A stretch of 64,000 nt of DNA, from NCBI RefSeq assembly GCF_030532195.1, contig NZ_JAUNLP010000001.1:310001-374000 (forward strand), written 5' to 3'. Positions 59,750 through 63,641 of the stretch are shown piece by piece. The position numbers were made by a program, and so were the translations under genes. The first letter of the stretch is position 1. Each line of letters starts with the position of its first letter. Under the pieces are notes generated by a model that saw only the letters and a list, made by a program, of their open reading frames with translations, was not told the origin of the DNA and ran no database searches. Source of the stretch: Corynebacterium sp. (lineage in GTDB: Bacteria > Actinomycetota > Actinomycetes > Mycobacteriales > Mycobacteriaceae).

Positions 59750-61126
59750 TTACCTGGCGCACGCGCGGACAAAACTACCGACGGTAGCTGGCGCACCCAC
59801 AGGGTGAACGTGCAGGTAACCAGCGTGAATTCGTCCTGACTCGGAAATGAAACCGTCGTGAACAGTCTCGCCGTGGTAGCCGCGCCACGCCCAGGCTGGC
59901 CGCCAGCCCGCTGCTTCTGCGGCCGCTGCGGTGTCTTTCGACAGCGCGGTCTTGTGGAACTCATGGCCACGAACCCTGGTGCCGGCGGGACACAAGGCCG
60001 AATCCGTCAACGACACTGCCTCGCGATAGCCGAGTTTCAGCCGTGCCATAAATGCGCGGCCCGGAATGACACCACACATGCGGCGACCGCCCAAGTCCTC
60101 CAGTAGCCACAGCAAACCTGCGCATTCGCCGTGGACTAGAGCCCCGTCATCGATAGCGCGGACAAGATCGCGACGAATATCATCGCGCAGTGACAGAGCT
60201 TCTGCGTGCTCCTCTGGAAAGCCGCCGGGGACAATGTAGCCATCGGCGGCGGGCAGGTCATCGACCAGCGGATCGAAATCCACAACCTCGGCACCGGCGG
60301 CGCGCAGCAGCTCGCGGTGCTCGGCATAGGTAAAGGAAAACGCAGGGCCAGCCGCAACTGCCACGCGCATGCGGCGCTTGTTTGGAAGTGGCTGAACCTT
60401 CCTCGAAGGATCCCAGGGCTCAGCGGGATACGGCATACTGGCCAGGCCTTGCAGCCGCTCGATATCGATAAAGCGCTCCACCAAGTTGGCCATCGATTCA
60501 ATGACGGCCTCCAGCTGTTCGCCCTGCTCAACTGCGGTGACCAACCCCAGATGCCTACTGGGCACCTCGATATCGGTCACACGCGGGATAGCGCCGAGTA
60601 CCTCAATTCCCATTGCCTCGACAGCGCGAGTGATGATGTCAGCATGTCGCTGGCTTCCCACCTGGTTAATAATGACACCGCTGACGCGCACATCGGTACG
60701 CAGAGTGGAAAAACCATGCACGACTGCGGCTGCCGATTGCGACATGTGCCGTGCGTCGACAACTAGAACGACCGGCAGGCCCAGGAGCGAAGCAATCTCC
60801 GCAGTGGATCCCTCGATGGACAGTGGGTCGTGCCCAATGCGGCCGTCGAAAAGCCCCATGACCCCCTCGATGACCGCGATATCGCAGCCGTCGGAGCCAT
60901 GCGCATACAGCGGACCGATAGTCTCTGGCGCGCACATGAACGAATCCAGGTTACGGCCCGGCCGCCCTGCCGCGACACCGTGGTAGCCAGGGTCGATGTA
61001 GTCAGGGCCAACCTTAAACGGCGCGACCTGGTGATTGCGTGACAACGCCCGCATCAAACCAGTGGAGATGGTGGTCTTTCCCGTCCCCGAGGCCGTCGCC
61101 GCGATGACAATTCCAGGAGCTACCAC
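59750..61126 (-). CDS. cobB: Cobyrinic/hydrogenobyrinic acid a,c-diamide synthase
   Basis: Amidates the a and c side chains of the corrin ring with glutamine and ATP. The 458 residues have the P-loop ASGTGKTTISTGLMRAL, then FKVGPDYIDPGYHG, and a class I glutaminase domain with nucleophile Cys in LVHGECAGLLWLLEDLGG and the final His in GYHGETVHDGFISE. Its start overlaps the cobO stop by seven bases. It shares the operon with cobO and the chelatase. Confidence 0.94.
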   Translation of the reverse strand: MVAPGIVIAATASGTGKTTISTGLMRALSRNHQVAPFKVGPDYIDPGYHGVAAGRPGRNLDSFMCAPETIGPLYAHGSDGCDIAVIEGVMGLFDGRIGHDPLSIEGSTAEIASLLGLPVVLVVDARHMSQSAAAVVHGFSTLRTDVRVSGVIINQVGSQRHADIITRAVEAMGIEVLGAIPRVTDIEVPSRHLGLVTAVEQGEQLEAVIESMANLVERFIDIERLQGLASMPYPAEPWDPSRKVQPLPNKRRMRVAVAAGPAFSFTYAEHRELLRAAGAEVVDFDPLVDDLPAADGYIVPGGFPEEHAEALSLRDDIRRDLVRAIDDGALVHGECAGLLWLLEDLGGRRMCGVIPGRAFMARLKLGYREAVSLTDSALCPAGTRVRGHEFHKTALSKDTAAAAEAAGWRPAWAWRGYHGETVHDGFISESGRIHAGYLHVHPVGAPATVGSFVRACAR

Positions 61127-61740
61127 TCGATGCCCTTCTGCCCCTTGCGCCCGACATCCATCGGATGCTTGATTTTGGTCATCTCGGTGACAAGGTCAGC
61201 GACCTCAAGGAGCTTCGGATCCGCATCGCGGCCGGTCATCACCACATGCTGGCGGCCTGGGCGGTTACGCAGCGTTTCCACCACATCGTCGACATCAATC
61301 CAGCCCCATTTGATGGGATAGGTGAACTCATCGAGGACGTAGAAGTCGTGCTCTTCATTCAAGAGGCGACGCTTAATCTCCTGCCAGCCCTCCGCCGCTG
61401 CCTGGGCGTGGTCCTCCTCGGTGCCCTTCTTGCGCGACCAGGACCAGCCCTCGCCCATCTTGTGCCATTCGACCGGGCCGCCCTCGCCCGTGTCGTCGTG
61501 AAGCGCGCCGAGCCGACGCATGACAGCTTCCTCGCCGACCTTCCACTTGGCAGACTTAACGAATTGGAACACGCCGATATTCATGCCTTGATTCCACGCG
61601 CGCATCGCCATGCCGAACGCCGCCGTGGACTTGCCCTTGCCGGGGCCAGTGTGCACGGCAGTGATCGGAATCATGCGACGCTGCCTCGTGGTCAGCCCGT
61701 CGTCGGGAATAGATTTGGGGTCAAGCTTTCCTTGTGCCAT
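61120..61740 (-). CDS. cobO: Cob(I)yrinic acid a,c-diamide adenosyltransferase
   Basis: Adds the 5'-deoxyadenosyl group to the reduced corrinoid. The 206-residue protein has the P-loop TGPGKGKSTAAFGMAMRAW, followed by GVFQFVKSAKWKVGE and VLDEFTYPIKWGWIDVDDVV, and ends KIKHPMDVGRKGQKGIEW. The ATG at 61740 ([10 protein letters not shown]) matches the actinobacterial CobO start; it has no clear ribosome-binding site but overlaps the VWA reading frame by 20 bases, which allows coupled translation. Confidence 0.93.
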   Translation of the reverse strand: MAQGKLDPKSIPDDGLTTRQRRMIPITAVHTGPGKGKSTAAFGMAMRAWNQGMNIGVFQFVKSAKWKVGEEAVMRRLGALHDDTGEGGPVEWHKMGEGWSWSRKKGTEEDHAQAAAEGWQEIKRRLLNEEHDFYVLDEFTYPIKWGWIDVDDVVETLRNRPGRQHVVMTGRDADPKLLEVADLVTEMTKIKHPMDVGRKGQKGIEW

Positions 61741-62608
61741 GGCTATGATGATATGCACGAACGACACCGGCAACGGATTCAGCACTCAGTTCGGTGAGGT
61801 TGACGCAGGTCGCGCCCATTTCCGCCGCAATTTCCTGCGCTAGTCCGAGGCGCACCCGGGAGCGCTCGCAGTCGATGACAACGGATGCCGCCAACGCTTG
61901 ACGACGAATCGTTGCGGCCGCCGCCCGCGCCTGCCGCAGGCCATCCTGGCCGGTGGCGCGGCCGTCAGAGAGCAGCACCATGATTGCGCGCCTCGATGGC
62001 TCCTTGCGAGCCTCCCGCGCCACCAGATCATGAGCGGTGATGAGACCCTGGGCAAGTGGAGTTCGGCCGCCGGTGCGGACATCTGCAAGCCTGCGCACTG
62101 CCGCATCAATCGACTTCGTCGGCGGCAACAGCACCTCTGCGCCACCGCCGCGGAAGGCTACAACGGCAACCTTGTCACGGTTCTGATAGGCGTCGCGCAG
62201 TAGCGAGGTCACGGCCCCGGTGACTGCGGCCAGGCGGTCGCGGGCCGCCATCGAGCCTGAAGCATCGACCACAAAGACCACGAGATCGGATTCAGTGCCC
62301 TGCCGAATCGCACCGTGAATGTCCGTAGGAATAAGCGGCAAAACCTGCGCATCGGTTGCTGTCTGATCAATACGGGCACCGCGGTTGGCGGCTGCCAGCA
62401 CGGTTGCCGGCACGTGGACTCCGTGTCCGCCGCGTTTGGCGCCAATGGTGCTGCCGCGCGGGCCGATAGCCTTGGACCTCCTGCCGGCCGAACCGTGGCC
62501 GACCCCGTCGATGCTGATCTTACGAACGGCGAAAGGGGGCGCCAGCGTTGGCGCGACCTGCCTTTCCGCCAGCAGCAGGCTGATTCTCGGGCTGCTCTGG
62601 CTGGGCAT
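61721..62608 (-). CDS. VWA (ChlD/BchD-type) chelatase subunit, second half of a frameshifted ChlI-ChlD
   Basis: Integrin-I-like domain of a Mg/Co chelatase. The MIDAS motif [11 protein letters not shown] is at about residue 114, with conserved Thr ([10 protein letters not shown]) and Asp (LLSDGRATG) following. It normally partners an AAA subunit to insert cobalt or magnesium. The only ATG (62608) has no ribosome-binding site and lies inside the upstream gene in another frame; its first 18 residues look like shadow coding. Protein homology begins only around 62560. It therefore reads as the C-terminal part of one ChlI-ChlD chain, joined by a frameshift. cobO overlaps its end. Confidence 0.8.
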
Positions 62609-63641
62609 CTTGTTCTGTCTGGCCTATCGAATCCGCATCATCCGGCTCTTCGATGGGTTCCTCCGGAAACTCCTCCTGTGCCTGATCTAAGGCATCGTCC
62701 AGCTGATCTTGGTCCAGACCGGGCTCGTCAAAGGGATCGCGGCGACGGCGGTGCGGCAGTGCCATCTCGGCGGCTACCTTGATGTCTTCCTGGTCAATCC
62801 CAATAGGCTCACCAGGCTGCGCGGACTCATCTTCGGCCACCCGCCATGCGGCATGAGCGCGGGCAGTGCGCGCAATGACGATATCCGCACGCATACCGTC
62901 AACATCAAAAGCAGCGCAGACGCTGGCAATTTGCCCCAGGACGGTCGGGGTCAGGGCGACGTCGTCAAGCAGCGTGCGCGCCCGTTCGATGCGATCCTTG
63001 AGCGCGGCATCCGCGTCGGCGAAGCGCGTGACAAAGTCCTCAGGATTGGCGTCGAAATCCAGCCGACGGGAGACAATCTCCGCGCGTATCGACGGATCTT
63101 TCGAGGCGACCACGTCGATGGCGAGACCAAAGCGGTCAAGAAGCTGTGGGCGCAGTTCGCCCTCTTCGGGGTTCATGGTGCCCACCAGCACGAAGCGTGA
63201 TGTAGCCGAATGAGAGATGCCATCGCGCTCGACGACGACGCGACCAGTAGCTGCGGCGTCGAGCACGGAATCCACCAGGTGATCCGGCAGTAGGTTGATT
63301 TCGTCGACGTAGAGAATGCCACCATCAGCGGCGCTGAGCAGCCCAGGATTAAAGCGGGCATGACCGGTGGTCAGCACAGTTTCGACATCGATGGAACCGA
63401 CGACGCGGTCCTCTGTCGCACCCAGCGGCAGATTGACCAGTAAGCCGCTGAGGAATGGCGCCAATGCGCGAACCGTCGTGGTCTTCGCAGTGCCCTTCTC
63501 ACCGCGAATGACAACACCGCCAATCTCAGGCACGAGGGCGGTGAGAATCAACGCCAGCTGGAGCCGCTCTTGCCCCACGATTGCGGTAAACGGAAAAGTG
63601 GGTTCCACATTGCGAGGGCTTGTCGACGCGATTTTTTCCAT
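62520..63641 (-). CDS. AAA+ (ChlI/BchI-type) chelatase subunit, first half of a frameshifted ChlI-ChlD
   Basis: MoxR/ChlI-type ATPase of 373 residues. Walker [12 protein letters not shown], the sensor loop [15 protein letters not shown] and Walker [19 protein letters not shown] are all present. The tail is an acidic, Glu/Gln/Pro-rich linker (about 295-360) of the kind that joins ChlI to ChlD in fused proteins (M. tuberculosis Rv2850c, about 629 residues, from memory). It ends early, at a TAA reached just after a C5-T3 run, while the downstream frame carries the VWA domain. Divalent-metal insertion, probably cobalt given the cob genes, is inferred. Confidence 0.85.
62535..62554 (-). other. Candidate frameshift site between ChlI and ChlD
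   Basis: On the minus strand, a perfect hairpin GCGCCA-ACGC-TGGCGC (62554-62539) is followed at once by CCCCCTTTC. In the first frame this reads GCC-CCC-TTT-CGC and stops at 62520; a +1 slip near CCC-T enters the VWA frame. A purine-rich GGAAAGG lies about 20 bases upstream. Confidence 0.6.

Follow-up and report, generated by a model that had tools for sequence, protein, structure and literature searches.

We analysed a window of 64,000 nucleotides from Corynebacterium sp. (assembly GCF_030532195.1, contig NZ_JAUNLP010000001.1, positions 310,001 to 374,000; the coordinates below count from its first letter), which carries a chlD-type chelatase gene, serving metal insertion in vitamin B12 synthesis, with its AAA ATPase part and its VWA part in different reading frames. 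Comparison across the genus points to expression of Corynebacterium chlD by programmed +1 ribosomal frameshifting, a reading to which we assign a probability of about 0.92. The gene comprises the following parts:

62520..63641, minus strand: AAA ATPase part of chlD, the 0-frame open reading frame (ORF) of 373 amino acids, which ends past the acidic linker
61721..62530, minus strand: VWA part of chlD in the +1 frame after the shift, 269 codons plus stop, predicted to be accessible through frameshifting alone (VWA_2, 2.5e-18)
61721-62608, minus strand: the VWA open frame taken as an ORF, 295 amino acids, overlapping the AAA ORF
62520..62522, minus strand: 0-frame stop TAA, 12 nucleotides past the start of the TTT codon (9-54 nucleotides in relatives)

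The two ORFs, which are in different frames, share exactly 89 bases, as a preliminary description of this DNA had stated, and the formal ATG of the VWA ORF (62608) falls where the AAA frame encodes the acidic linker. The same description had the AAA frame stopping directly after CGCC, which has to be corrected to the TAA listed above; the 0-frame ends GGA AAG GCA GGT CGC GCC AAC GCT GGC GCC CCC TTT CGC CGT TCG TAA. In profile searches the AAA part matches AAA_5 (3.2e-13) and TIGR02030 ChlI (1e-95, in two stretches, up to position 322 of 337), and between them the two halves account for most of TIGR02442, 'putative cobaltochelatase' (68-356 aligned to 89-367, and 23-271 to 389-640 of 641). The whole-protein cut-off of the latter is 779; scored on single halves, each falls below it, as splitting would lead one to expect. 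The predicted fusion would have 370 + 269 = 639 amino acids, against 641 in TIGR02442, and would show across two frames the layout of a ChlD/CobT-type medium subunit, namely AAA, acidic linker and VWA in about 640 residues.

Conservation of the split in Corynebacterium

We searched 242 Corynebacterium genomes with the VWA part and mapped both halves in the 74 that matched. The gene is split at the same codon in 72 of these species, with an offset of +1 in 71; in the 72nd (G187) the frame is +1 as far as a run of N that represents an assembly gap. The two remaining matches are a species with a single-frame chlD (G196, discussed below) and a distant unsplit paralogue (G112), which was set aside. 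Outside the genus, chlD is unsplit in the approximately 140 relatives listed, from 29 other genera, with open frames of at least 617 amino acids except in two genomes (G299 and G474) that appear short solely through contig ends. The one-frame chlD genes that passed the full-length cut-off in a first survey of 101 genomes numbered 21, none of them from Corynebacterium.

The 42 nucleotides around the junction align without gaps in the 72 split species, and in the source genome the only match to a model of this region at E ≤ 0.5 is the chlD junction itself (1.2e-8). Over 61 genomes the model gave ten strong matches, all at chlD and one per split-chlD genome; in other genes of these 61 genomes no strong match was found, the rest being weak (E ≥ 0.007) and not followed up. 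Because 72 species share the split codon and the model matches nowhere else in the genome, the split lies far beyond chance. A 13-base pattern proved too unspecific for a useful family-wide search, and no RNA family described in Rfam matches the junction, up to E = 1.

Some observations concern individual assemblies. Contig CAMDFY010000225.1 (L137), labelled as a Bifidobacterium breve metagenome-assembled genome, contains a chlD whose AAA part is 60% identical to that of the source genome, and is probably mis-binned. The paralogue that was set aside (locus L120 of G112) is a distant unsplit ChlD-like frame of 681 amino acids, the only one in that genome, accompanied by a divergent CobN, and was possibly acquired from outside the genus. 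Two fragmented Corynebacterium assemblies, G222 and G223, encode CobN and gave no chlD match, probably because of an assembly gap.

The slip codon

The junction is numbered from the first T of TTT as position 0, and expected codon counts were taken from the codon usage of the respective species. Its elements in the source genome are:

62531..62534, minus strand: predicted slip site TTT_C, with TTT at 62534-62532 and CGC as the next 0-frame codon
62535..62537, minus strand: E-site codon CCC (CCC in 57 of 72 species; otherwise CAG, ACC or CGA)
62539..62554, minus strand: predicted stimulator hairpin GCGCCA-ACGC-TGGCGC, with its core GCC-N6-GGC at 62552-62541, just 5' of the E-site codon
62556..62567, minus strand: internal Shine-Dalgarno (SD)-like stretch GGAAAGGCAGGT, with a gap of 21 nucleotides to TTT

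TTT followed by C is found in all 72 split species, where usage would predict TTT in 27-33, and the next 0-frame codon is CGN in 66 (CCA, CTC or CAC in the others); the +1 motif UUU_CGN is thus present with its UUU_C throughout and with its CGN in those 66. Among 254 conserved columns of chlD, TTT is the sole invariant codon, which points to purifying selection on the slip site at the nucleotide level. When all 254 columns are ranked by constraint, which serves as a control for shared ancestry, GGC at -9 comes first, TTT at 0 second and GCC at -18 third, and the six other conserved phenylalanine columns of the gene mix TTT and TTC. The 0-frame stop lies 9 nucleotides past the start of TTT in 37 species, and in G243 the +1 frame opens 17 nucleotides before the stop; with such short distances, few codons are able to host the shift. 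After a +1 movement, re-pairing from TTT to TTC is possible in all 72 species, and from CCC to CCT in 57, whereas the ACC, CAG and CGA of the other 15 cannot re-pair.

On this comparison the slip codon is TTT rather than the C-run. The preliminary description had proposed a +1 slip at the C-run: its direction stands, and its site does not, given that the codon before TTT is ACC, CAG or CGA in 15 species. It had also suggested comparing the C5T3 run, the hairpin and the frame offset among close relatives; the hairpin and the +1 offset proved to be conserved, and the C-run is not a conserved element.

Upstream signal

The SD-like stretch occupies positions -31 to -22, and its predicted duplex with the 16S rRNA tail has a mean free energy of -9.35 kcal/mol at -31 to -23, calculated with a general 16S tail and not with that of the source genome. 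Energies of -5 kcal/mol or lower are reached in 71 of the 72 split species, compared with 23% of 69 aligned unsplit sites. Within the stretch, codon choice is strongly biased (GTA in 22 of 23 cases, 2.3 expected; GGT in 49 of 59, 14.6 expected), and the encoded amino acids vary (K-A-G, K-E-D, K-V-G, Q-G-G).

Between this stretch and the slip codon lies the predicted hairpin, whose core GCC(-18)-N6-GGC(-9) in most species gains one or two further pairs and whose 3' end falls 3-5 bases ahead of the slip codon. At least four of its five pairs can form in 68 of the 72 split species, as against 4 of 69 unsplit relatives. The codons that build it are constrained as well, with GGC in 68 and GCC in 65 of the 72 species where 27 would be expected for each. 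The local folding signal is confined to the hairpin (z about -2.5), and downstream of the junction no signal of a stimulator structure was seen by local folding (mean z 0.1 to -0.5). We base the case for the hairpin on the retained pairing together with the codon constraint. The 6-bp hairpin (62554-62539) and the purine-rich GGAAAGG (62567-62561) had both been noted before, and the comparative tests uphold their relevance.

A species in which the frames were rejoined

The single-frame gene of G196 provides a natural control, since this species is nested inside the split clade: it groups with 13 sisters at 100% support, and the enclosing clade of 54 rows is also supported at 100%. Its frames are rejoined, with CCC TTC GCC read in one frame. 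The energy of its SD-like stretch is -3.8 kcal/mol and three of five hairpin pairs are left, values that unsplit relatives also show. Once the shift is no longer needed, TTT and both upstream elements decay together, as seen in this one species, which stands on a long branch. Their joint loss indicates that the two upstream elements serve the shift and not the protein. What the comparison shows is the split itself, its +1 direction, which codon slips, and joint selection on the three elements.

Alternative explanations

A homopolymer sequencing or assembly indel in a gene that is truly in one frame would be suggested by the C5T3 run at the junction and by the one-frame chlD of other Mycobacteriales. 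However, the same offset occurs at the same codon in 72 separately sequenced species, many with single-contig assemblies, and independent errors would not also preserve the SD-like stretch, the hairpin and TTT; we therefore take the chlD split to be real, and consider an error to be hardly credible. We give just as little credence to a decayed pseudogene that has kept function in its AAA part alone: formally the frame is interrupted, but the VWA part is open and conserved genus-wide, at 44-81% identity, and codon constraint is highest precisely at the junction. It is improbable, though less remote than either of these, that chlD represents two genes, the VWA part being translated alone, either through termination-reinitiation or from an internal start for which the SD-like stretch provides the ribosome-binding site. 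The strength of that stretch would suit internal initiation, and the overlap of the stop with the VWA frame would suit coupling. Yet there is no conserved ATG, GTG or TTG in the VWA frame between -60 and +60 and none at all in 27 of 72 species, the source species included, in agreement with the earlier remark that the VWA part has no usable start. A VWA-frame start with an SD-like energy of -6 kcal/mol or lower is present in only four of the 72, and this explanation leaves unaccounted for both the invariant TTT and the joint loss of the elements in the fused gene of G196. An uninterrupted frame in sister genomes, or a conserved VWA start with its own ribosome-binding site, had been named at the outset as observations that would speak against a frameshift; the sisters keep the split, and no such start is conserved in the 72 species.

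A slip by tRNA-Pro at CCC_T in the C-run, instead of at TTT_C, is also improbable, if marginally less so than two separate genes. CCC_U is a known +1 site (PMC5009743), and where proline precedes TTT its codon is always CCC (57 of 57 species, against 15.6 expected). The 15 species with CAG, ACC or CGA are nevertheless still split, and the only re-pairing available to all 72 is that of TTT; CCC is more readily understood as a codon preferred in the E site. Four observations weigh against programmed frameshifting at TTT as we describe it. In the split species, a covariation check found no compensatory double changes in the hairpin, its variation consisting of C to U opposite G. The SD-like stretch is 21 nucleotides from the slip codon, compared with 3 in prfB and 8-11 in -1 signals, and such a gap is too long for ordinary SD action with TTT in the P site. 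As for function, 14 split species keep the signal in the absence of CobN, 13 of them forming one clade, and other genera use a one-frame chlD, so that two products are not strictly required everywhere.

Proposed mechanism and products

From the conserved elements we infer that ribosomes do slip at this site with some efficiency, that both products are used, and that the hairpin and the SD-like stretch act physically, as follows. The AAA part and the acidic linker would be translated first. The SD-like stretch would then pair with 16S rRNA while the GCC-N6-GGC hairpin forms again immediately behind the E site. Once UUU occupies the P site and CGN, an arginine codon, the A site, tRNA-Phe(GAA) would shift from UUU to the better-pairing UUC. 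With the hairpin (about 16 nucleotides) looped out, the effective SD gap would be 4-6 nucleotides, near the geometry of prfB; alternatively, the SD-like stretch may slow the ribosome earlier, with each element acting separately.

Ribosomes that do not slip would meet a stop 9-54 nucleotides past the start of TTT and would yield an AAA-only product of about 370 amino acids, similar to the small subunit ChlI/CobS, whereas those that slip would produce the 639-residue AAA-linker-VWA protein, similar to the medium subunit ChlD/CobT. Both products together with CobN would form an aerobic cobaltochelatase. The gene neighbourhood consists of:

61120..61785, minus strand: cobO/cobA, cob(I)yrinic acid a,c-diamide adenosyltransferase, next downstream of chlD (NF004637, 2.1e-79)
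59750..61126, minus strand: cobB, cobyrinic/hydrogenobyrinic acid a,c-diamide synthase (NF002204, 9.8e-143)
59970-58639: tetrapyrrole methyltransferase gene, also downstream of chlD

CobN is encoded on the same contig (C9:79739-83008), and a genome search found ChlI-like matches only in the split chlD, with no separate chlI in the source genome. Since CobN is present and a separate chlI is absent, a single gene plausibly supplies both the small and the medium cobaltochelatase subunits, an idea already published for fs-chlD, the frameshifted chlD genes (PMC9227772). The two-product reading and the cobaltochelatase context of the preliminary description likewise hold under the comparative tests. 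CobN was found in 58 of the 72 split species; the 14 that lack it indicate that the role of the chlD product is not always that of a cobaltochelatase, and that the pair of products has another or additional role there.

The CobN-less clade of 13 species comprises G003, G030, G044, G046, G118, G129, G133, G136, G145, G153, G166, G218 and G258 (for example loci L037 and L043), and at L037 a gene resembling SUMT-type tetrapyrrole methyltransferases adjoins chlD. In G013, G041, G169, G203, G250, G160, G187 and G188 a second chelatase cluster with a second CobN-like protein exists in addition to the frameshifted chlD; separate chlI-like and chlD-like genes of this cluster were read at L051 and L052.

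Relation to known frameshift signals

Frameshifted chlD and magnesium chelatase genes have been described in, for example, Pseudomonas and Methanocaldococcus (PMC3711429, PMC9227772), with up to 63% frameshifting measured in members of the fs-chlD family (PMC3711429). The Corynebacterium gene resembles them in being the same gene, with AAA and VWA in different frames and small and medium subunits predicted from one mRNA, and in a split that is conserved between species, at +1 in 71 of 72. In contrast, the shifts described in these papers are -1, at A-rich sites (A_AAA_AAR) with a downstream stem-loop, whereas that of Corynebacterium would be +1, at TTT_C, with stimulators upstream only. The AT-rich site and downstream structure that are usual, but not universal, in fs-chlD are absent here, where TTT_C stands in a GC-rich context. 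The Pseudomonas shift, at CCA AAA AAG CCC TAG followed by a strong stem-loop, is unlike it. Some +1 cases are mentioned for fs-chlD genes, with no taxa given, and actinobacteria are stated to be represented among the frameshifted genes (PMC9227772); the +1 cases may include Corynebacterium genes.

As in prfB, whose +1 slipping is stimulated by SD pairing, the signal combines a +1 slip in the P site with an internal SD-like stretch upstream, but it has a sense codon in the A site (mostly CGN), an SD-like stretch 21 nucleotides away and a hairpin in between. The prfB frameshift signal is absent from Actinomycetota (PMC12421855). Slipping by +1 at UUU_CGN is known from PA-X of influenza A and from plant amalgaviruses (PMC3498833, PMC5052127), which share with chlD the identical slip tetranucleotide and likewise favour CGN as the A-site codon. 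These sites belong to eukaryotic viruses, lack an SD and shift at low efficiency (about 1-2% as measured for PA-X), whereas chlD is a bacterial cellular gene with upstream stimulators. A hairpin abutting the E site, acting as an SD mimic, stimulates +1 slipping in 70S extracts (PMC6321510); it too stands directly 5' of the E-site codon, but belongs to a designed reporter, whereas the Corynebacterium hairpin is natural, conserved and accompanied by an SD-like stretch further upstream.

Origin and significance

In a chlD tree rooted on the Pseudomonas fs-chlD genes, those of Corynebacterium cluster with the unsplit chlD of actinobacteria (100/98 for the clade of 36 rows), and the relatives from Dietzia, Gordonia and Mycobacterium are all unsplit; the deep actinobacterial branching is too poorly resolved to name a sister group. 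Because the Corynebacterium genes are placed among unsplit genes of actinobacteria and apart from Pseudomonas, whose shift looks different, the split most likely arose separately, within the genus. It has been suggested, on the contrary, that fs-chlD genes are ancient and were spread by transfer, not re-evolved (PMC9227772).

Frameshifting in chlD is itself known. Compared with the published descriptions, the slip site, the upstream signal, the genus-wide constraint and the separate origin appear to be new. We found no literature on ribosomal frameshifting and chelatase in Corynebacterium; the original 2020 study of chlD frameshifting, which lay outside the scope of this search, may already list the genus. 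More tentatively, and at slightly less than even odds, we propose that the junction represents a three-part bacterial +1 signal that has not yet been described: a distant SD-like stretch, a refolding hairpin that abuts the E site, and UUU_CGN, whose A-site codon is a sense one. The signal would have arisen within Corynebacterium from an unsplit actinobacterial chlD and been kept through the genus, the hairpin acting as an SD duplex or bringing one near.

If this is correct, the splitting of chlD to obtain two subunits would have evolved more than once and by different routes, contrary to the suggestion of ancient genes spread by transfer, and the genus would offer both a case of convergent recoding of chlD and a natural example of a hairpin effect previously described for designed reporters. 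In practical terms, the annotations of some 70 Corynebacterium genomes may show two partial genes or a pseudogene at chlD. The junction would also provide a compact, conserved and readily testable +1 signal in a phylum without the prfB frameshift, and in a genus that includes the laboratory workhorse C. glutamicum.
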